Positions 6,734-36,469 of a DNA stretch of 41,847 nt are shown piece after piece. This DNA comes from Halobacteriales archaeon QS_1_69_70 (lineage in GTDB: Archaea; Halobacteriota; Halobacteria; Halobacteriales; Haloarculaceae): NCBI GenBank assembly GCA_003021005.1, contig PXRI01000014.1:1-41847 (forward strand), given 5' to 3'. Numbering within the stretch: the first letter of the stretch is position 1; the number at the start of each line of letters is the position of its first letter. Under the pieces are notes generated by a model. The model was given only the letters and a program-made list of their open reading frames with translations. It made no database searches and was not told where the DNA came from. Both the position numbers and the translations under genes were made by a program.

Positions 6734-7210
6734 ATGCCCGACTGCCCGCTCGCCGAGGAGTGCCCCAGTTTCTCCGAACGGATAGAGGGCATGGGGTGTC
6801 AACACTACGGGGACCGGGGCGGCGCCGAGTGGTGCTCCCACTACAGCCAGCCGATCCGGGACCTCAAGGGCCAGCCCGTCACGCTCGGCGAGGAGGTGGT
6901 CGTCGACGTGGAGGACATCCACGAGTCCGGCGCCGGCGTGGGTCGGACGGAGGACGGCTTCATCGTGATGGTCGACGGCGTGCTGCCGGAGGCGCGGGCG
7001 AAGGTCCGGATCACGGAGGTCCGCTCGAACCACGCGCGCGCAGAGGAGGTCGAACGCCTCCCGATGGACGAGGAGGGCGAGGGCGAAGAGGCCGTCCCGG
7101 CCGGCGAGTCGGTGGCGTCCGACGAGGAAGAGGGATCCACCGAGAGCGAGCGGGAGCGCACGCTGGACCGCGAACGGCTGGGCAGCCGCGAGAACTTCTG
7201 GGGCAGTTGA
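6734..7210 (+). CDS. TRAM-domain protein with N-terminal Cys/His cluster
   Basis: A 158-residue protein. The N-terminus has a Cys/His cluster (CPLAEECPSF, GMGCQHYGD, WCSHY), a possible zinc site. Residues about 50-112 are a TRAM beta-barrel (VVVDVEDIHESGAGVGRTED, VMVDGVLPEARAKVRITEV). A very acidic tail follows. Family knowledge: archaeal TRAM proteins bind RNA, some acting as RNA chaperones. The ATG at 6734 follows a well-spaced TATA element. The stop overlaps the proposed TTG start of the Tfx-type gene, so the two form an operon. Confidence 0.8.
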   Translation: MPDCPLAEECPSFSERIEGMGCQHYGDRGGAEWCSHYSQPIRDLKGQPVTLGEEVVVDVEDIHESGAGVGRTEDGFIVMVDGVLPEARAKVRITEVRSNHARAEEVERLPMDEEGEGEEAVPAGESVASDEEEGSTESERERTLDRERLGSRENFWGS

Positions 7211-7662
7211 CCCGTCCAGACGCCGACGAGCTGCTCGACCGGGCCGGGTTCGTCGCGGCCGACAGCGTCCTCACCAGGCGGCAGGCCGAGGTACTCGCGT
7301 TCAGAGAGCGGGGGGTCGCCCAGGCCGACATCGCCGACCACCTGGGGACCTCGCGGGCGAACGTCTCGAGCGTCGAATCGAGCGCCCGCGAGAACGTCGC
7401 CAAGGCCCAGGAGACCGTCGCCTTCGCCGAGGCGCTGACGGCGCCGGTCCAGGTCACCGTCGAGGCCGGCACCGACCTCTACGACGTCCCGAACATGGTG
7501 TACTCCGCCTGCGACGACGAGGGCGTGAAGGTCGCCCGGACGGCGCCCGAGGTCATGCGGCTCGTCGGCGACGCGGCCGGCGACGCCGTCCACGGCCGGG
7601 AGGTCCGCCGCGATATCACGGTAAGCGTCACGGGCGACGGCACCGTCCGCGTCCGGGAGTGA
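7207..7662 (+). CDS. Tfx family DNA-binding protein
   Basis: A 151-residue protein. The N-terminal HTH reads LTRRQAEVLAFRERGVAQAD and continues to LGTSRANVSSVESSARENV, the characteristic Tfx recognition region. The C-terminal half is a small ligand- or partner-binding domain. No ATG or GTG suits; the best start is TTG at 7207, whose last two bases overlap the TGA of the TRAM gene (TTGA). Family knowledge: Tfx is an archaeal transcription regulator first described for a molybdenum formylmethanofuran dehydrogenase operon; the haloarchaeal targets are unknown. Confidence 0.8.
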   Translation: MTRPDADELLDRAGFVAADSVLTRRQAEVLAFRERGVAQADIADHLGTSRANVSSVESSARENVAKAQETVAFAEALTAPVQVTVEAGTDLYDVPNMVYSACDDEGVKVARTAPEVMRLVGDAAGDAVHGREVRRDITVSVTGDGTVRVRE

Positions 7663-25056: not shown

Positions 25057-25344
25057 TCAGACCAGCGCCAGGGAGGCAAACGGCGCGATCATCCCGGCGA
25101 ACGCAACCTCGAGGTACGCCAGGAGGATCACGAGGATCGCACCAGGCACGCCGCCGACGGCACAGACGAGGACCGCGATGGGCGTGATCGCGACGCCGAG
25201 GCCGGCGACGTTGGCCACCACGAGGATGATCAGCCCGACGATGGCGTTGATGATGAGTGGCTTGATGGTCTTGATGACAGTGTAAGCCCCGAACAGCAGC
25301 ACCAGAACCAGGAGTAGCAGCGCGATCTCAGTTGTTGTGACCAT
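25057..25344 (-). CDS. BofA-like small membrane protein
   Basis: A 95-residue protein with three hydrophobic segments: MVTTTEIALLLLVLVLLFGA, KPLIINAIVGLIILVVANVA and a C-terminal AILVILLAYLEVAFAGMIAP. The pattern VIKTIKPLIINAIVGLIIL followed by PIAVLVCAVGGVPGAI is that of the pro-sigma-K processing inhibitor BofA family. Family knowledge: in Bacillus BofA inhibits the site-2 protease SpoIVFB. A site-2 protease is encoded 3.3 kb away here, but a functional link is only inference. Confidence 0.75.
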   Translation of the reverse strand: MVTTTEIALLLLVLVLLFGAYTVIKTIKPLIINAIVGLIILVVANVAGLGVAITPIAVLVCAVGGVPGAILVILLAYLEVAFAGMIAPFASLALV

Positions 25345-25462
25345 GGCCGGTGGTCGTGGGGTCCGGCTATATCGCTTGGGGCCGACTGGCTGGCACTGTT
25401 CAGATTAGGATGCCGTTCATCAGACAGCTCGACTCACCGGACTTAGGGCCTCATCGGCACCT

Positions 25463-25934
25463 CGAACAACGAGTTCGGGCGGGACTCCGCAAGGGGCCGG
25501 CTGCGTCGCGGCGTACGCCGCGACGACAGGCGGTTGCCGGCGCAGCCGGCAACCCGCTCGGGGACGGCCGGCGACGGTGAGCCGAGCGACGCGAGGCGAA
25601 CAGCGCGGCGCGACGCGCCGCGGGCCGTGCGAGCGGCCGATGGCCGCGAGCAGACGTCGCTGGACGAGCGCCGCGAGTCCAGCGGAACAAGCACTGGCGC
25701 GAACGGGCGGCGCGAGCGGAGTGAGCGCCGCCGGATGGACGAACGGCGAGCGGAAGGTCGAGCGAAGCGAGACCTCCAAGGGCGAGCGGCGACCGTCGGG
25801 AGCCGCGAGCGACGCGAACCGTGAGCCGGGCGGCCGAATGAAAGGAGGCCGCCGGACGTGCGAGCGGCGTCCTCGCGAGCGAAGCGAGCGAGGGCTCGGC
25901 AGAGCTTCGCTCTACCGGCGAACGGAGTGAGCCG
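25463..25934. repeat. Dense array of hairpins with fixed 11-nt loops
   Basis: In about 470 bases at least a dozen inverted repeats are packed side by side. Seven have an 11-nt loop resembling GAGCGAAGCGA between arms of 3-8 bp that differ from one another: 25581-25597, 25659-25683, 25706-25732, 25755-25775, 25829-25853, 25871-25893 and 25916-25934. Others are simple palindromes (25506-25523, 25532-25554, 25604-25622, 25633-25647, 25901-25913). Several overlapping frames stay open on both strands because stop codons are rare in this sequence, but none looks like a protein. The array lies between the BofA-like gene and tRNA-Pro. Confidence 0.85.
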
Positions 25935-26061
25935 CAAGCACCGCCCGACCCGAGAAGCCGGGGGCTCGCGTCCACCGTAGGATTACTCAGCTTATTAAGT
26001 TAACACCGCCGACCTGGTGGAGCGAAACGTTTTCACCCGACCGGACAGTACCATCGGATGC

Positions 26062-26134
26062 GGGACCGTGGGGTAGCTTGGTATCCTTCATGCTTTGGGT
26101 GCATGTAACCCCGATTCAAATTCGGGCGGTCCCA
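26062..26134 (+). tRNA. tRNA-Pro (anticodon TGG)
   Basis: A complete cloverleaf: acceptor GGGACCG/CGGTCCC with discriminator A73, D arm GGGTAGCTTGGTATCCT, anticodon stem CATGC/GCATG around TTTGGGT (anticodon TGG), and T arm CCGATTCAAATTCGG. CCA is not encoded. DNA from 26135 to 26382 holds no gene. Confidence 0.95.
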
Positions 26135-29299: not shown

Positions 29300-32200
29300 A
29301 TGGCCCGAGCGGAGAACACCGAGGTCACGGCGGAGTTCGAGCGGTTCTACCGCGAGTACTACCGCGACGAGATCGGGGACCTCGCCCAGAAGTACCCGAA
29401 CGAAAAGCGGTCGCTGTACGTCGACTGGGACGACCTCTACCGGTTCGATCCGGACCTTGCCGACGACCTCCTCGCCCAGCCCGACCAGATCCGGGACTAC
29501 GCCGAGGAGGCGCTCCGGCTGTACGACCTCCCGGTCGACGTCTCGCTCGGCCAGGCCCACGTCCGCGTTCGCAACCTCCAGGATTCGACCGAGATCCGGG
29601 CGATCCGGGCCCGCCACCGCGGACGGCTCATCGCGGTGACCGGCATCGTCCGGAAGGCGACCGACGTCCGCCCGAAGGTGACGGAGGCGGCCTTCGAGTG
29701 CCAGCGCTGCGGGACGCTGTCCCGGATTCCCCAGTCGTCGGGGGAGTTCCACGAGCCCCACGAGTGCCAGGGCTGTGAGCGCCAGGGCCCCTTCGAGGTC
29801 AACTTCGACCAGTCCGAGTTCGTCGACGCCCAGAAGCTCCGCGTCCAGGAGTCCCCGGAGGGCCTCCGCGGCGGCGAGACCCCACAGAGCATCGACGTCC
29901 ACATCGACGACGACATCACGGGCCACGTCACCGCCGGCGACCACGTCCGCGTCACCGGCATCCTCCACCTCGACCAGCAGGGCTCCGACCGGGACAAGTC
30001 CCCCATCTTCGACCTCTACATGGACGGCATCAGCGTCGAGATCGAGGACGAGCAGTTCGAGGACATGGACATCACCGACGCGGACAAGACGGAGATCATC
30101 GAGCTGTCGAACGCCGGCGACGTCTACGAGCGGATGGTGGATTCGATGGCCCCGTCGATCTACGGGTACGAACAGGAGAAGCTGGCGATGGTGCTACAGC
30201 TGTTCTCCGGCGTCACGAAGCACCTCCCGGACGACTCCCGCATCCGGGGGGACCTCCATATGCTCCTGATCGGTGATCCCGGTACCGGGAAGTGCCTGAA
30301 AGGAGACACCAAGGTCACGCTCGCGGACGGTCGGGAGCGGCAGATCGGACCGCTCGTCGAGTCCCATCTCGAGGACCCGACCCCGGTCGACGACGGCGTG
30401 TACGACGAGGTGGACATCCCCCTGGTCTCGATGAACTCGGAGGGCCGCCTCGAGGACCGGCGCGCGACGAAGGTCTGGAAGCGCGAGGCCCCCGAACGGA
30501 TGTATCGTATCAGGACGGCAAGCGGGAAGCAACTCGAAATCACACCGTCCCACCCGCTTTTCGTCCAGGCTGACGGGCGGATCGCGCCCGTCGATGCCGC
30601 CGACCTGACTGAAGGCGAGTTCGTCGCACTCCCCGGACGGCTGCCGACCGACGGCGACGACACCATCGCCGTCGATTACCGCGAGTCACGGTCGAACAAC
30701 GCCGTCAGACTCGATCTCCCGGACACGTGGACGCCCTGGCTTGCCCGGCTCGTCGGCTACATCGTCGCGGAGGGACACGTTACCGTGACGGATGACCACA
30801 GTGCCGACGTCAGGGTGACCAACGAGGACGAGGAGATCCTGGACGACATCGCCCGGTGTCTCGACCGGCTCGGGGTCAACTATACCGTCCAAGACGACCG
30901 CAACTCCAAATCCGCATCGGTCGCGCGCTGTGCGTCAAGCGAGCTCGTACGCTTCCTGGAACGCATCGAACCGGCGATCCTCGAGTCCTCGGCCGACCAG
31001 CGGGTGCCCGACGCCATTCTTGGCGCGTCACGCCCTGTCCAGCGTGGCTTCCTCCGGGCGTACGTCGACTCGGAGGGTCACGTATCGAGGACCCAGCGTG
31101 AACTCGCAGTCGCCTCGATGAGCCCCGAACTGCTCGAGGGCGTCGAATCGCTGCTTTTGGCTTCCGGAATCACCTCGAGTATCGAGCCGCGGGCGAACGG
31201 AAGTTACCGCCTTCGCATCAGCGGGGCAGACTTCGAACGGTACGTCGGCCGTATCGGGTTCGTCACCGACAGGAAGTCGAAGAGCGCCGGTGAGTTCGAC
31301 GGCGTAGAATCCAACACGAACGTCGACGTCCTCCCGGGCGTCGGCGACGAACTCGCGACCGTTCGGCAGGCCCTCGCGCTCTCGCAGTTCGACTGCGACA
31401 TCCCACGATCGACGTACCAACACTACGAGCGTGGCGACCGGAACCCGAGTCGATCGAGCCTCCGAACGGTCGTCGACCGCTTCCGGGAACGGTTGGACTG
31501 GCTCCACGCGACGAAGGCCTGTATCGAGACCGGGAGTTGGAACGATATCGAGGCCGTCCGGGAGAAACTGGACCTGTCTCAACGCGACCTGGCCGAGCGG
31601 ATGGGCGTAGCACAGACCGCGGTGAGTTACTACGAACGAAACGAGGTGGCCCCCGACGGTGGCCGAACCGCCGCCGCCAAGGACGCCGTCCTCGACCGTA
31701 TCGAACAGGGCCTCGCCGTCGAAGACCGAATCCAGGCGTTGGGAACTCTCGCGGAGAACGACATCCGATGGGACCGCATCGAATCCATCGAGCCGGTCCA
31801 CCCGGACTACGAGTGGGTGTACGACCTCGAGGTGCCCGGCGCGCACTGCTATGTCTCGAACAATGTCGTCTCCCACAACTCCGCCCTGCTGCAGTACATC
31901 CGGAGAGTCGCCCCGCGCTCGGTATATACCTCGGGCAAGGGCTCTTCGAGTGCCGGCCTCACGGCGGCGGCGGTGCGGGACGACTTCGGGGACGGCCAGC
32001 AGTGGACCCTGGAAGCGGGGGCGCTCGTGTTGGCGGACAAGGGCATCGCCGCCATCGACGAGCTGGACAAGATGCGGTGTGTGACCGGCGACACCCTGGT
32101 CAATACCGGCGACGGGCGGGTCGAACGAATGCGAGACCTGGCGAGGGAGGCTGCAGACTGCGGCAGTATCGAACGACTGGACGACGGGCGAACGATACGT

Positions 32201-35200
32201 GACGTACCGCTGACGGTCTGGACGATGACCGACGAGGGGCGACTGGTCCGTCGTCCCGTGACAGCCGTCCACGAATACGATGCCCCCGAGGCTATGACCG
32301 ACGTGACGCTGGAAACCGGGGAGTCGATCACGGCGACTGACGACCACCCGTTCTTCGTCATGGAGGCGGGGGAGCGAACGACGACGCCTGCCTCCGACCT
32401 GGAACCCGGCCAGTGGGTGTACGTTCCGCGAGCGCTCCCATCGCCAGTGGGCGACGGCGGCACCGCCGCGGCGACGTCGTGGACCGACGAGCCGGGAACG
32501 GAGATGTCGTCGGCGCTAGCTGGCGTGCTTGGTTACCTGTCCGGCGACGGGAACGTTTACTACGAGAGCGACGAGGGCGTCTACGGCATCCGCTTTTCCA
32601 ACACCGAGGAGAAACTGCTGGCCGACTTCGAGGACGCCTGCCGGGAGGCGTTCGACGCCGAGCCGGTCCGGCCACCGAGTGAAATCCGGGAGGACGGCGT
32701 CGAGACGGTCCGCCTCATGGGGCAGCAGTACGCCGACGCCGTCCTCGACGCCGGGATGACCCTCGAAACGTACGACGGGAAGACGCTCCCTGCCGGCGTG
32801 ACACGTGGCTCCCGGGAGGCGAAGGCCGTGTTCATCCGTGCGCTCGCCGACAGCGAGGGCAGCGTCAACGACCGGAACGTGAAGGTGCATTCCTCGAGCC
32901 GCCACCTCCTGCTCGGCGTCAAGAGCCTCCTCTTGGAATTCGGTGTGTCCTGCCAGATCCAGACGCGCGAACGCGAGACGGGTCGGGACCTCCACGTCCT
33001 GGCGATCACGGCGGCCGACTCGCTGGCTGCGTTCAACCGCAACGTCGGGTTCACCCTGGATCGCAAACAGGAGGCCCTCGACGCGGCCTGCAGAACGGTG
33101 TCCGGGGACCGCACCATCCTCGACGTGATTCCCGACATCGGGACCCACCTGGCGGACCTCAGGGCAGACCTTCGACTGCACCAGTCCGAGTGCGGTATCG
33201 AACCGACAACGTACTGCAATTTCGAGAACGGTGACGCAAACCTCTCGCTCCATCGCGCCGAGTCCGTGCTCGACGCGTTCGAGGCCCGGCAGCGACAAGC
33301 GACGTCGGATCTGGAACTCCTGCAGGAGGCCCCCGGCTGGGACGGCCTCGCGACGCTCAAAGACCGGTACCACGTCTCCCACTCGGAACTCGCCCGACGG
33401 ACGGAGTACAGCCAACCACAGGTCTCGGCCAGGTGGGGCGAGGACCCGGCGCTCCGCGAGGTCGTCCACCAGCGGATACAGTCGATCGTCGCGGCGGTCG
33501 CTGCGACGGACCTCACCCCTCTTCGCCGACACGTCGACGGCGACGTCAAATGGCGGCGGGTGGCGTCGGTCGATAGCGTCGACGCGACTGCCCGGGAGGA
33601 CCGGGTTCCCATCCTCGAGGAAGACCTCGCCGACGTTATCGGATGCGCCGTTCACGACGCGACGGCGCAAGCCCGCGGACTCCTCGACCGGGAGCCGACG
33701 ACGGCGACGTGGACGGAGCTCCGGGACGAACTCCACCGATACGATATCTCCTTCGAGACCCTTTCGGACGACCTCGGTGTCGACGGTTCCACGATCTCAC
33801 GATGGTTCAATGGGGTCGTCGGAACCGATCGGTTCGACGAGGTAAGAACCGCTGCCCTGGACCGCATACACCGGAAGCGCGATCGGCTCCGCGAACTCCT
33901 CGACGAGATCGACGAGCGTCGGCGACCGAAGGTCTACGATCTGACGGTCGCGGACACCCACAATTTCGTCGCCAACGGCATGGTGGTCCACAACTCGGAG
34001 GACCGGTCGGCCATGCATGAGGCGCTCGAACAACAGTCCTACCATCCGAGTTCTGAACTCCTCCTTGCGAACGGTCGCCGCGTCGTGATGGGCGAGTTCG
34101 TCGACGAGCGGATGACCGATCGGTCGGACGAGGTGGTCGACGGCGTCGACTGTGAGATCCTCCAGGTTGAGGACGTGGGTGTCCACTCGGTCGATCTCGA
34201 AACGCACGAGACGACGAAGCAACCGGTCGACCGGGTGAGCCGCCACGAAGCCCCCGAGGAATTCGTCCGTATATCCTTCTCGAACGGGCGGGACGTCCTC
34301 GTCACCCCCGAACACCCGATGTTCGCAGATCTGGACGGTGAGATCGGTACCGTTGAAGCGCGGAACATCGAGGAGGGAGCGTTCGTCCCCGCCCCACGGA
34401 AGTTGCCGAATTCGAGTACTTCCGTCGAGTTGGCCGACGAAACGCATATCGGGAAGGAACGGGACGTCGACCTCCCGGACGAATTGAGCGGGGATCTCGC
34501 GGAGCTCTTGGGATTCCTCGTCGCGGAGGGCCACTCCTACGCCGGTTCGGCGCACGAAATCGGGTTCTCGAATCAGGACGACCGACTGCTTGCCCGGGTG
34601 GACGGGTTGATGTACCGGGAGTTCGGCTTCCCGAGCACGGATACGACGAACGCGGCCGGAACGGTGACGAAGCGGTGGGTGTCGACTAAACTCTACCGCT
34701 GGTTCGAGGCGAACTTCCCGGAGTTCATGCACACCGCCCGGGAGAAGCGAATCCCGGCTCGCGTCCTCGGTGCGGCCGAGGAGCAAATCCGCCGCTTCCT
34801 TGTCGGGTCTTTCGCTGGCGATGGCGGCGTCGAATCCGAAGCGATGGCGTTCTCTACTGCCTCCGAGGGGCTGGCACGCGATTACGGTGATGCGCTGGCG
34901 AAAATCGGGGTCGCCTCACGTATTCACCACGATTCAACGGGGGATTCCTGGAAGGTGTACGTGATGGGCGATTCGATCGAGCAGTTCGTCGACGCCGTCG
35001 TCGACCCTCTGGACGATCGTCACGACGAGGCCCGGGCGTTCGTCGAACGAAGCAACGAGACAAGACGCCACCACGACGTCCTCCCGACGAGCGCGGCCCG
35101 AGAAATTCGGGAGCTTCGTTCTCTCCTGGGGCTACGCAAAACCGGTCAGTTCCGCCCCAATCTCGACGAGGGATACGGCGTCCAAGTCGAAACCGTCCGC

Positions 35201-36469
35201 GAACAGGTCGAGTCTATCCGTAACCGCATCAGAGATATCCGGGCAGCCGTGGACGCGGCGTCAGACCTCGCTGGAGTCCGTGCCGCGGCCGGCTGGTCGG
35301 GACGCCAGCTCGCCGAGCGGATGGACGGTCCGACACCAAGCCGTATCTACTACGCGGAGGACGGTGGGTACGATATCGAAACCCGGGACCGACTCGGGGC
35401 CCTCGCTCGTGAAACCGTGCATAGCAAGCTGGATGAAGCCGCCCGCCGCACCGACGCACTCCTGGATCGCTGTGAGCTGCGGTACTACCGTGTCACCGAC
35501 GTCGAGACGATCCCGAACGAAGGCGAGCACGCAACTGACTGGGTGTATGACGTGACCGTCGAGCCGACGAACACATTCGTCAGTCAGGGCGTGGTCCTCC
35601 ACAACTCCATCTCCATCTCGAAGGCCGGGATCAACGCCACCTTGAAGTCGCGGTGCTCGCTGCTCGGGGCAGCAAACCCCAAATACGGTAGATTCGACGA
35701 ATACGAACCTATCGGAGAACAGATAGATCTGGAGCCGGCACTGATCTCCCGGTTCGACCTGATCTTCACGGTGGCCGACCAGCCCGACGCCGAGCGGGAT
35801 GCCGACCTCGCCGACCACATCATCGACACCAACTACGCCGGCGAACTCCACACCCACCGGGCGAACCAGGCGACGCCGAACGTCTCCCGGGCGGAACTCG
35901 ACGAGGTCACCGAGACGGTTGAGCCGGCCATCGAACCCGAACTGCTCCGGAAGTACATCGCCTACGCCAAGCGGAACTGTTTCCCGACCATGACGGCGGA
36001 GGCGAAGGCGGCGATCCGGGAGTTCTACGTCGACCTCAGGGCGAAGGGCCAGGACGATGACGCGCCGGTGCCAGTGACTGCCCGGAAGCTGGAGGCGCTG
36101 GTGCGGCTCTCGGAAGCGTCCGCGCGGATGCGGCTGTCGGACTCCGTCGAGGCCGAGGACGCCGAGCGCGTGATCGACATCGTTCGGTCGTGTCTGCAAG
36201 ATATCGGCGTCGACCCCGAGACCGGCGAGTTCGACGCCGACGTGGTCGAGACGGGCCACTCGAAGACCCAGCGGGACCGCATCAGGAGCATCAAGTCCCT
36301 CATCGGCGAGGTCGAGGCGGAGTACGACGAGGGCGCCCCGCGGGAGGAGGTGCTCGACCGCGCCGAGGAGATCGGGCTGGAGCGATCGAAGGCCGACCAC
36401 GAGATCGAGAAGCTCAGACAGAAGGGCGACGTCTACGAGCCACAGACCGACCACTTGCGGACCGTCTGA
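29300..36469 (+). CDS. mcm: Replicative helicase MCM with three inteins
   Basis: A 2389-residue precursor; removing the inteins leaves 698 residues, the normal haloarchaeal MCM length. The N-terminal part has the zinc element CQRCG/CQGC and OB-fold strands. The AAA+ core has Walker A GDPGTGK, Walker B IDELDKM, the pre-sensor hairpin SISISKAGINATLKSRCSLL and the Arg finger region LISRFDL; a C-terminal winged helix ends the protein. Family knowledge: MCM is the hexameric replicative helicase. Inteins sit at GDPGTGK/S, DELDKMR/S and EALEQQ/S, all in ATP-handling or DNA-handling motifs. Start: ATG 29300; the same frame stays open to GTG 29060 only because of a tandem repeat. TGATG overlap with the next gene. 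Confidence 0.95.
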   Translation: MARAENTEVTAEFERFYREYYRDEIGDLAQKYPNEKRSLYVDWDDLYRFDPDLADDLLAQPDQIRDYAEEALRLYDLPVDVSLGQAHVRVRNLQDSTEIRAIRARHRGRLIAVTGIVRKATDVRPKVTEAAFECQRCGTLSRIPQSSGEFHEPHECQGCERQGPFEVNFDQSEFVDAQKLRVQESPEGLRGGETPQSIDVHIDDDITGHVTAGDHVRVTGILHLDQQGSDRDKSPIFDLYMDGISVEIEDEQFEDMDITDADKTEIIELSNAGDVYERMVDSMAPSIYGYEQEKLAMVLQLFSGVTKHLPDDSRIRGDLHMLLIGDPGTGKCLKGDTKVTLADGRERQIGPLVESHLEDPTPVDDGVYDEVDIPLVSMNSEGRLEDRRATKVWKREAPERMYRIRTASGKQLEITPSHPLFVQADGRIAPVDAADLTEGEFVALPGRLPTDGDDTIAVDYRESRSNNAVRLDLPDTWTPWLARLVGYIVAEGHVTVTDDHSADVRVTNEDEEILDDIARCLDRLGVNYTVQDDRNSKSASVARCASSELVRFLERIEPAILESSADQRVPDAILGASRPVQRGFLRAYVDSEGHVSRTQRELAVASMSPELLEGVESLLLASGITSSIEPRANGSYRLRISGADFERYVGRIGFVTDRKSKSAGEFDGVESNTNVDVLPGVGDELATVRQALALSQFDCDIPRSTYQHYERGDRNPSRSSLRTVVDRFRERLDWLHATKACIETGSWNDIEAVREKLDLSQRDLAERMGVAQTAVSYYERNEVAPDGGRTAAAKDAVLDRIEQGLAVEDRIQALGTLAENDIRWDRIESIEPVHPDYEWVYDLEVPGAHCYVSNNVVSHNSALLQYIRRVAPRSVYTSGKGSSSAGLTAAAVRDDFGDGQQWTLEAGALVLADKGIAAIDELDKMRCVTGDTLVNTGDGRVERMRDLAREAADCGSIERLDDGRTIRDVPLTVWTMTDEGRLVRRPVTAVHEYDAPEAMTDVTLETGESITATDDHPFFVMEAGERTTTPASDLEPGQWVYVPRALPSPVGDGGTAAATSWTDEPGTEMSSALAGVLGYLSGDGNVYYESDEGVYGIRFSNTEEKLLADFEDACREAFDAEPVRPPSEIREDGVETVRLMGQQYADAVLDAGMTLETYDGKTLPAGVTRGSREAKAVFIRALADSEGSVNDRNVKVHSSSRHLLLGVKSLLLEFGVSCQIQTRERETGRDLHVLAITAADSLAAFNRNVGFTLDRKQEALDAACRTVSGDRTILDVIPDIGTHLADLRADLRLHQSECGIEPTTYCNFENGDANLSLHRAESVLDAFEARQRQATSDLELLQEAPGWDGLATLKDRYHVSHSELARRTEYSQPQVSARWGEDPALREVVHQRIQSIVAAVAATDLTPLRRHVDGDVKWRRVASVDSVDATAREDRVPILEEDLADVIGCAVHDATAQARGLLDREPTTATWTELRDELHRYDISFETLSDDLGVDGSTISRWFNGVVGTDRFDEVRTAALDRIHRKRDRLRELLDEIDERRRPKVYDLTVADTHNFVANGMVVHNSEDRSAMHEALEQQSYHPSSELLLANGRRVVMGEFVDERMTDRSDEVVDGVDCEILQVEDVGVHSVDLETHETTKQPVDRVSRHEAPEEFVRISFSNGRDVLVTPEHPMFADLDGEIGTVEARNIEEGAFVPAPRKLPNSSTSVELADETHIGKERDVDLPDELSGDLAELLGFLVAEGHSYAGSAHEIGFSNQDDRLLARVDGLMYREFGFPSTDTTNAAGTVTKRWVSTKLYRWFEANFPEFMHTAREKRIPARVLGAAEEQIRRFLVGSFAGDGGVESEAMAFSTASEGLARDYGDALAKIGVASRIHHDSTGDSWKVYVMGDSIEQFVDAVVDPLDDRHDEARAFVERSNETRRHHDVLPTSAAREIRELRSLLGLRKTGQFRPNLDEGYGVQVETVREQVESIRNRIRDIRAAVDAASDLAGVRAAAGWSGRQLAERMDGPTPSRIYYAEDGGYDIETRDRLGALARETVHSKLDEAARRTDALLDRCELRYYRVTDVETIPNEGEHATDWVYDVTVEPTNTFVSQGVVLHNSISISKAGINATLKSRCSLLGAANPKYGRFDEYEPIGEQIDLEPALISRFDLIFTVADQPDAERDADLADHIIDTNYAGELHTHRANQATPNVSRAELDEVTETVEPAIEPELLRKYIAYAKRNCFPTMTAEAKAAIREFYVDLRAKGQDDDAPVPVTARKLEALVRLSEASARMRLSDSVEAEDAERVIDIVRSCLQDIGVDPETGEFDADVVETGHSKTQRDRIRSIKSLIGEVEAEYDEGAPREEVLDRAEEIGLERSKADHEIEKLRQKGDVYEPQTDHLRTV
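30293..31879 (+). mobile_element. Intein 1 of MCM (at Walker A), 529 residues
   Basis: Starts with Cys1 (CLKGDTKVTLADG) after GDPGTGK and ends HCYVSNNVVSHN before Ser. Block B is ITPSHPLF. A LAGLIDADG nuclease is present: LVGYIVAEGHV and FLRAYVDSEGHV. After it come two XRE-like helix-turn-helix units, around TVRQALALSQFDC and LDLSQRDLAERMGVAQTAVS. All splicing residues are present, so it should be active; nuclease Asp/Glu residues of both motifs are kept. Confidence 0.92.
32078..33994 (+). mobile_element. Intein 2 of MCM (after Walker B), 639 residues
   Basis: Starts with Cys1 (CVTGDTLVNTGDGR) after DELDKMR and ends FVANGMVVHN before Ser. Block B is ITATDDHPFF. The nuclease motifs are LGYLSGDGNV and FIRALADSEGSV. 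Three HTH-like units follow: around LRADLRLHQSECG, LKDRYHVSHSELARRTEYSQ and ISFETLSDDLGVDGSTISRW. It is the largest of the three, the additional length being the third HTH unit. Confidence 0.92.
34037..35605 (+). mobile_element. Intein 3 of MCM (before pre-sensor hairpin), 523 residues
   Basis: Starts with Ser1 (SYHPSSELLLANGRR) after EALEQQ and ends FVSQGVVLHN before Ser. Block B is LVTPEHPMF. The nuclease motifs are LLGFLVAEGHSY and FLVGSFAGDGGV. Two HTH-like units follow: around IRELRSLLGLRKTG and VRAAAGWSGRQLAERMDGPT. The use of Ser instead of Cys at position 1 differs from the other two. Confidence 0.92.

Follow-up and report, generated by a model that had tools for sequence, protein, structure and literature searches.

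A hairpin array in a haloarchaeal genome as a possible stack of palindromic repeat units nested inside a MITE-like element

The window, i.e., the whole stretch of 41,847 nucleotides that was analyzed, is contig C14 of Halobacteriales archaeon QS_1_69_70 (G000 hereafter; genome of 2.45 Mb, 82% complete), and searches with it return relatives within Halobacteria. An array of hairpins lies between a gene of the BofA family (25057-25344, minus strand) and a gene for tRNA-Pro (26062-26134, plus strand). Elsewhere in the window, a long frame at 29300-36469 resembles, by eye, an MCM helicase with three intein-like insertions. Scanning both strands for 11-nt heads of the form GA.{7}GA with arms of at least 4 bp yielded seven hairpins in the array, listed here with one further hairpin recognized by reading.

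Around 25584, plus strand: hairpin with head GAGCGACGCGA and arms of only 3 bp (by reading)
25658-25684, plus strand: hairpin CGCTGGAC
25706-25732, plus strand: hairpin with 8-bp arms GGCGGCGC and head GAGCGGAGTGA
25755-25775, plus strand: hairpin with arms AGGTC
25786-25806, plus strand: hairpin with arms GCGGC and head GACCGTCGGGA
25829-25853, plus strand: hairpin with 7-bp arms GGCGGCC and head GAATGAAAGGA
25871-25893, plus strand: hairpin with arms CCTCGC
25916-25934, plus strand: host hairpin with arms CGGC and head GAACGGAGTGA, whose outer left arm is separated by unit B (scan and alignment of MITE copies)

A previous reading of the window, made without database searches (the sequence-only reading), had described at least seven hairpins at 25463-25934 with divergent arms around a constant 11-nt loop. 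Six of its seven heads carry arms of at least 4 bp, and the arms and remaining heads agree with its description, but the seventh (GAGCGACGCGA) has arms of 3 bp, the hairpin at 25786-25806 was absent from its list, and position 25463 precedes the first hairpin of the GA-head kind. That the array exceeds chance was confirmed by 1,000 dinucleotide shuffles of 25463-25934, which retain its biased composition (75% GC, T at 32 of 472 positions): 0.069 hairpins with arms of at least 4 bp were expected (maximum, 2) versus 7 observed, and 0.009 versus 4 for arms of at least 6 bp. The remaining GA.{7}GA hairpins of the window with arms of at least 4 bp are isolated (three on the plus and five on the minus strand), and by eye none of these eight forms both inner pairs of the head described below. 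None of the five overlapping open frames matched Pfam when this check, proposed earlier, was run, and a protein-coding function of the array was rejected on these 0 of 5 matches.

The 11-nt "loop" is probably structured as GA-NN-GNA-N'N'-GA rather than open, because its inner pairs covary and GA faces GA on both sides. In DNA, C-G-closed GNA triloops and tandem sheared G.A pairs have unusual stability; the literature also mentions a GCGAAGC mini-hairpin. Typically, each hairpin would be tipped by a head able to fold into a stem, a tandem G.A-A.G, two base pairs, and a GNA triloop, drawn schematically as follows.

arm-GACCGGAGGGA-arm': head-bearing hairpin

In 416 kb of G000, hairpins with 11-nt loops are in excess (50 with arms of at least 8 bp versus 15 to 35 for other loop lengths), and 52 of the 242 with arms of at least 7 bp have GA..GA loops, the mirror TC..TC class also counting 52 and the next class 4. 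Both inner pairs are formed in 277 of 328 candidates from 1.203 Mb of G000 (CC/GG, 112; GC/GC, 75; AC/GT, 35), and 177 of these 277 heads have a GNA triloop. Among GNA heads with paired arms, each inner pair is Watson-Crick in 189 of 201 (CG, 86; GC, 75; AT, 28), versus 240 and 198 of the 673 armless heads, by which the earlier notion of an open loop is probably wrong. In 140 distinct 21-mers, selected without using the inner pairs, the Watson-Crick fractions were 0.83 and 0.81, compared with 0.33 and 0.67 after shuffling one side; the second inner pair is mostly C-G and contributes less to the covariation signal. Together with the shuffles (7 hairpins versus 0.069), this covariation bears out the structural nature proposed for the array. 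Single departures from pairing on the head strand were G.T or T.G in 20 cases and A.C or C.A in 5 (pairs 1 to 6 and inner pairs; arm pair 7, with 11 G.T/T.G and 0 A.C, was excluded), an asymmetry expected if the head-bearing strand folds alone, to which no probability attaches since related copies were counted separately. Just outside, GA also stands on both sides in 45 of 89 hairpins with arms of 4 to 5 bp.

The 1.203 Mb of G000 contain 95 clusters formed by 213 of the 328 hairpins, and 50 of the 52 multi-hairpin clusters are one-stranded. Eight of the 95 overlap predicted genes, with 78% of the sequence called coding by codon-model predictions rather than annotation, and 85 are intergenic when two contig-edge clusters are left out. 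Short palindromes of this kind are indeed common between haloarchaeal genes, as the sequence-only reading had stated. Its description needs correction for the arms, most of which occur beyond this array: 36 distinct arms are found among 140 hairpins of G000 with arms of at least 7 bp.

A search of the genome and its relatives, which had also been suggested, found heads genome-wide in G000 and enriched across Halobacteria. The pattern GACCGNAGGGA has 225 matches in G000 versus 1 for the reversed pattern, the highest among 292 genomes of the class, and by eye it exceeds its reversed control in most of them; examples of genomes where it does not are G070 (2 versus 5), G152 (10 versus 11), G198 (3 versus 8), and G302 (17 versus 17). 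GCGAGCGAAGCGAGC, whose reversed control overlaps the motif and gives no independent control in Halobacteria, occurs in 67 of 294 genomes of a phylum sample, mostly Halobacteria, with several copies in G498. Outside the class, five genomes of genus g80 in family f14 (G373, G386, G394, G414, and G496) carry 5 to 13 copies of GCGAGCGAAGCGAGC with 0 to 1 for the reversed pattern; other sampled members of the genus have 0 or 1 copy. A 36-base unit pattern matched 22 stretches in named genomes, in a search that may have omitted the genome of the window itself: 20 in Halobacteriales archaeon QH_7_69_31 (G011) and one each in Halorhabdus amylolytica and a Haloarculaceae bin.

Two further observations were made next to such hairpins. 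A second recurrent intergenic element with hairpins lies in G000 at L049 (contig C2, 4423-4630), with conserved T/A-rich parts, TTTTTCCCCA..GTTT and AGTAAAAAGTGG, that show some variation, and elements of this type are also found on C8 at 33950, 38608, 72724, 221790, and 233243; CCGCGC hairpins like its first one occur in a genome of another family (G266) as well. At L047 (C5, about 6840-6990), a tRNA-Ser-like sequence with an interrupted 3' part was seen by eye beside a hairpin cluster; ARAGORN called only the intact tRNA-Ser copy at 7164-7250.

The array of the window lies within a larger element, whose borders follow from homologous copies in G000 and G011. In the list below, the terminal repeats come from this copy comparison, the target duplications from the empty site GACCGGCC in G011 (locus L081), and the units and their direct repeats from an alignment of MITE copies and, for units B and C and the direct repeats, pattern matches.

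25384..25391, no strand: 8-bp target duplication, left copy GACTGGCT, diverged
25392..26010, plus strand: MITE-like carrier of 619 bp (244-bp core form in other copies); homologous copies run from 25392 to about 26010
25392..25402, plus strand: left terminal inverted repeat GGCACTGTTCA
25503..25557 (approximate), plus strand: added palindrome pair (CGTCGCGGCGT/ACGCCGCGACG and GGTTGCCGGC-GCA-GCCGGCAACC), missing from 244-bp core copies
25577..25687 (approximate), plus strand: added module ending in hairpin CGCTGGAC, with its own inner addition at 25600-25653, from aligned copies with and without the module
25748-25752 and 25807-25811, plus strand: GAGCG direct repeats flanking unit C
25753..25806, plus strand: unit C, a double hairpin (GAAGGTC..GACCTCC and GCGGC..GCCGC) in the tip of a host hairpin; another copy is present/absent at the orthologous site C5:11324
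25865-25869 and 25916-25920, plus strand: CGGCG direct repeats flanking unit B
25870..25915, plus strand: unit B of 46 nt, a TCCTCGC hairpin and a CTCGGCAGAGC hairpin in the neck of the host GCGGC-GAACGGAGTGA-GCCGC; other copies are present/absent at orthologous sites
25999..26010, minus strand: right terminal inverted repeat, inward GGCGGTGTTAAC (GGCAGTGTTCA in other copies)
26011..26018, no strand: 8-bp target duplication, right copy GACCTGGT, diverged

The carrier ends in GGCACTGTTCA and TGAACACTGCC, imperfect in some copies, and its empty site is present in the close relative G011. Judged from the printed flanks, the 8-bp duplications are perfect at L087, L088, L090, L093, and L099 and partial at other loci; automatic pairing (at least 6 of 8 positions) gave 8 pairs, five of them 8/8 and one from another, 193-bp type; this pairing contributed L085 and L170 to the loci with duplications. 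Four of the 17 aligned copies measure 244 bp and the rest up to 647 bp (L085 ends at an inner match in this alignment, its end being placed at 585 bp by the automatic pairing), and the copies differ by palindromic modules added at several points. In the window copy, two separate additions precede the unit stack (25706-25940), within which units B and C lie. The array is a set of modules within a MITE, some copies of which have these modules and others not. Terminal repeats, 8-bp duplications, the lack of recognized coding in its five overlapping frames, and copies of 244 to 647 bp are features shared with MITEs; unlike them, the carrier here gains length through hairpin units. In some copies, one side of the MITE hairpin CGCTGGAC is disrupted (CGCAGGAC), which counts against the explanation that we favor.

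Profile searches detected no PF12762 in G000 (82% complete) or G011 (72% complete). At a locus with an IS1595-type gene in G007 (L240, 1050-2217), the ends GGCGGTGTTG and GGCACTGTTG resemble those of the MITE, with flanks agreeing at 3 of 8 positions; by this sequence resemblance, IS1595 is a lead only for the carrier's transposase. A viral or plasmid origin was set aside: the MITE had no match in a phage collection and one partial plasmid match, and a 19-base pattern had 8 matches on viral contigs. Another stretch of G000 (C8:49846-50038, 193 bp) has similar terminal repeats together with a duplication of 8 bp, CTCTGTCC, that is perfect, and may be a further MITE type.

In our proposal, small palindromic repeat units are stacked in the array and nested within the MITE; the basic unit, about 46 to 68 nt in total, comprises two hairpins joined by a linker. 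The common form has a first hairpin with arms of 7 to 8 bp, a linker of ~10 nt ending in GCGA, a second hairpin with 5-bp arms, and GAGC. GAGCG immediately precedes 15 of the 19 pattern matches of unit C (GGAGGTC type), and CGGCG or CGGTG precedes 18 of the 21 TCCTCGC matches of unit B, whose pattern has 29 matches, the other 8 being CCGCGC hairpins of another element. GAGCG and CGGCG are both frequent motifs in the units themselves and may not represent target duplications. Comparing G000 with G011, we found sites where one genome carries a unit and its counterpart an unbroken hairpin, in the tips at C5:11324 (60 nt), C21:50931 (62 nt), C7:56343 (63 nt; here the host arms differ too), and C21:37729 (117 nt, in G011). 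In the necks at C10:102807, C17:93763, and C21:71226, unit B (51 nt each) is present only in G011. Four genomes picked for high counts were surveyed at up to 8 loci each. One of them, G288, from a different genus of the same family, shows double hairpins arranged in this way but with other arms; single hairpins with such heads occur in G153, G266, and G168.

According to this proposal, units have spread through the genome and are found, all oriented alike, at the tip or neck of hairpins of their own kind; since units nest in tips and necks, the structure branches and grows like a tree. Insertion would rely on an enzyme supplied in trans, and folding would presumably take place in single-stranded DNA. 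Individual cases, with weak statistics, suggest the tip as the preferred target. The presence or absence of units could also reflect loss rather than gain, and the stereotyped host sites could reflect the spread of a ready-made composite.

Automatic tests of tip insertion were weak or unsuccessful. Among 32 indels between G000 and G011 (the event at C5:11324 being entered twice), 22 lie inside some hairpin, 5 inside a GA head, and many in linkers; no enrichment was seen, and the P values (0.68 and 0.22) carry no weight since the expectation is undefined. A split-head test gave 94 complementary cases versus 62, 34, and 55, mostly pairs of separate complete hairpins, and a further one was dominated by background. 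In 54 multi-hairpin regions, 53 split GA-GA heads with 5-bp arms pair on the head strand, versus 2 for TC-TC and 1 to 13 for six other dinucleotides, but matches as direct repeats number 52, on a par with the complementary ones, and some of the 53 are connectors between neighboring hairpins. With 6-bp arms there was no excess in these regions (11 complementary; controls, 15, 9, and 7). Nine inserts read there as tip insertions measure 62 to 68 nt, others 37 to 191 nt.

A copy lies inside a protein gene. Within uvrC of G000, the element lengthens the protein in frame by about 67 residues (283-349), and family hairpins occupy the same place, with the frame open, in G005, G010, and G018; in G011 the hairpin element is present and the match splits into two frames. 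The insert is missing from uvrC in 13 genomes of the genus (in G002, G003, G007, and G016 as judged by adjoining matches), and G012 gave no uvrC match. Variants of the first hairpin here are CGAGGCC, GGAGGCC, and CGAGGCGC, each with a matching right arm. At the same place in uvrC of G015 (L244) is an unrelated, low-complexity insert rich in Ala, Gly, Ser, and Thr.

For 36 of the 95 clusters, both flanks mapped to a single stretch of the G011 sequence that was covered (0.72 Mb, overlaps included). In 20 of the 36, each flank has an identity of at least 90%, and some of the others are probably paralogous. At 34 of the 36 loci, some of them probably such paralogous pairs, the two clusters are more than 20 nt apart in length. 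Thirteen hairpins were judged orthologous, 11 from a flank-filtered comparison and two from an earlier one and not chosen blind: 5 changed in both arms and are fully paired nonetheless, 5 are unchanged (2 of which follow an upstream length difference), and 3 changed on one side. The sequence-only reading had proposed to look for strain-to-strain covariation of the arms; between these two relatives, both arms differ together at 5 of the 13. The flank filter kept 23 flank sides and dropped 66; the 11 hairpins counted are those present in both genomes at the orthologous place. MITE paralogues (window, C13:58696, and C8:199180) were left out, as were sides whose first hairpin was absent or different. 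The earlier comparison (96 of 232 anchored) mixed orthologues with paralogues. Its two rows had left flanks of 98 to 99% and arms known beforehand to have changed; a third such row with unchanged arms, C17:100320, apparently inside a gene, was left out.

Both arms differ between G000 and G011 at C10:94937, C10:111714, C43:48183, C8:20482 (CGAGGCC to GGCGGCGC), and C17:75075 (CGAGACC/GAACAAAGTGA to CGAGGCGCC/GAGCGAAGCGA). At a few percent divergence, independent substitutions would be expected to produce mainly one-sided changes. The donor search covered 1.2 Mb from G000 and 0.58 Mb from G011. At C10:111714, C43:48183, and C8:20482, both arm types are common (14 to 30 copies in the G000 sample, 8 to 18 in that of G011), which makes replacement from another copy the simplest reading. 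The G000 arm of C10:94937 has no other copy in the sampled sequence and its G011 arm occurs once more, in G000; neither arm of C17:75075 was found elsewhere. We propose that once many copies exist, ectopic gene conversion or replacement between copies would swap whole hairpins, so that both arms change together and pairing is kept, with gene conversion as the presumed main process.

As the sequence-only reading had suggested, one arm might instead be copied into the other in place, by slippage or template switching at a stable mini-hairpin, so that flanks become paired around a constant head. Template switching has been proposed to create and maintain RNA hairpins (PMC8794818), and the joint change of both arms between relatives is what it predicts. 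At C10:94937 and C17:75075, where no donor for at least one state was found in the sampled sequence, it also fits, and copying in place may apply; in the other three of five, replacement suffices, both arm types having 8 to 30 copies per sample. Since the arms also arrive with the linker and head of the family, and head and arm length change in one step (CGAGGCC with CC/GG to CGAGGCGC with GC/GC), we consider in-place copying an unlikely source of the array as a whole.

Similarly doubtful, in our judgment, is that the hairpins are parts of transcripts (3' untranslated region stabilizers, terminators, or small RNAs) whose pairing is kept by selection on RNA folding. The strand-specific tolerance of G.T over A.C (20 versus 5) would suit it, although single-stranded DNA gives the same asymmetry, as would heads lying on one strand per cluster; predicted RNA folding also recovers the branched nesting of unit C in its host. 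However, of the 85 intergenic clusters, 40 follow a co-directed and 45 an opposed gene, which lends no support to the transcript-linked role considered earlier, and a promoter or terminator role was rejected on this absence of orientation bias. Rfam had no match in the array up to an E value of 1 (a single sub-threshold snoRNA match, 25398-25458, lies outside it). The length differences at 34 of 36 loci and the copy inside uvrC also argue against selected transcripts.

Mobilization in trans by a Y1 transposase of the IS200/IS605 type, with the hairpins as recognition sites as in REP/RAYT or PATEs, is weakened and appears very improbable. It would account for the one-strand behavior, and haloarchaeal PATEs are related to IS605-type elements (PMC3119063). 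Against it, Y1_Tnp (PF01797) was not found in G000 (82% complete) or G011 (72% complete), the head-richest genomes of the genus, while it is present in 13 of 20 genomes, and head counts do not follow Y1 copies across these 20 (rho, -0.27; P = 0.26). The searches identified no mobilizing enzyme for the units, PF01797 being absent from both of these incomplete genomes. An artifact of GC-rich repetitive sequence or a decayed reading frame, for which the T-poor, 75% GC composition and five overlapping frames of 96 to 174 amino acids might speak, can be set aside as already refuted by the shuffles, the inner-pair covariation, and the empty site, with no Pfam match for any of the five frames.

We favor nested units in a MITE, placed on the same strand in tips or necks and kept paired by structure as well as by exchange of whole hairpins between copies, at a probability of roughly 0.55. 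A bolder version is distinctly tentative: structure-defined, class-wide mobile double hairpins would recognize their own folded GA-GNA tip on one strand, insert without a known transposase, and branch ever further; the GNA mini-hairpin of single-stranded DNA would serve at once to identify the units and to mark where they land.

REP families are known by arm sequence. Like REP/REPIN elements with RAYT, the hairpins are short, high-copy palindromes between genes; here, however, the arms vary (36 distinct among 140) and the head is constant, and no Y1/RAYT was found in G000 (82% complete). PATEs and other IS200/IS605 elements lack terminal inverted repeats and target duplications, whereas the carrier has both; a Y1 gene, their other feature, was not found in G000 or G011, both incomplete. 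The units are placed outside PATE and REP because the features of these groups were looked for and not found in these two incomplete genomes. We judge that they belong to no existing family and that the carrier is MITE-like.

The nearest known behavior would be, by analogy, that of SMR-A repeats of Haloquadratum walsbyi, which are ~110 bp long, lack a transposase, and have many copies (PMC3119063). Both are haloarchaeal, short, transposase-free, and numerous, and SMR-A inserts within palindromes of other elements (PATEs, IS605-type), the targets being PATE/IS605 palindromes and the SMR-A families sharing no sequence similarity, according to the same source. In contrast, guests and hosts here share the GA-GNA head, the units span about 46 to 68 nt, and no Y1 transposase was found in the two richest genomes. 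Insertion within palindromes is represented here by seven individual cases, the automatic test showing no enrichment; SMR-A has prominent terminal inverted repeats without target duplication; units here are flanked by 5-nt GAGCG or CGGCG repeats, which need not be such duplications.

For in-frame entry, the closest analogy would be the Rickettsia palindromic elements, which are palindromic and enter protein genes in frame, as in uvrC here, but measure ~150 bp and affect many genes (PMC10969869); here such entry is shown for one gene, with the frame kept in four genomes, and copies are mostly intergenic. Mitochondrial double-hairpin elements and GC clusters of Allomyces, yeast, and sponges are likewise hairpin units, some double, dispersed, and apparently mobile with no known enzyme (PMC4478555 and PMC2800124). 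Nested units of two hairpins are found here too; in sponges, stems are conserved and loops vary (PMC2800124), the reverse of the haloarchaeal hairpins. Titles and abstract openings in the open literature, with subscription papers outside this scope, gave no description of this haloarchaeal repeat; by title, none of the open papers containing 12-mers of the head concerns haloarchaea, and the main text of the RepRanger paper (PMC12306157) has no word starting with Halo. New are the constant GA-GNA head with variable arms, the nesting in its own kind, and the spread through Halobacteria.

If the favored reading is true, much of the intergenic palindromic DNA of haloarchaea would be one structural repeat family nesting in itself, with both arms altered together and with the capacity to insert peptides in frame into proteins, UvrC among them. 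Some of the spurious Arg/Glu/Ser-rich frames of these genomes may also be due to the family. Copies of one MITE would record how branched secondary structure grows, and the orthologous hairpins would provide a concrete case for separating selection, template switching, and gene conversion as sources of compensatory change.
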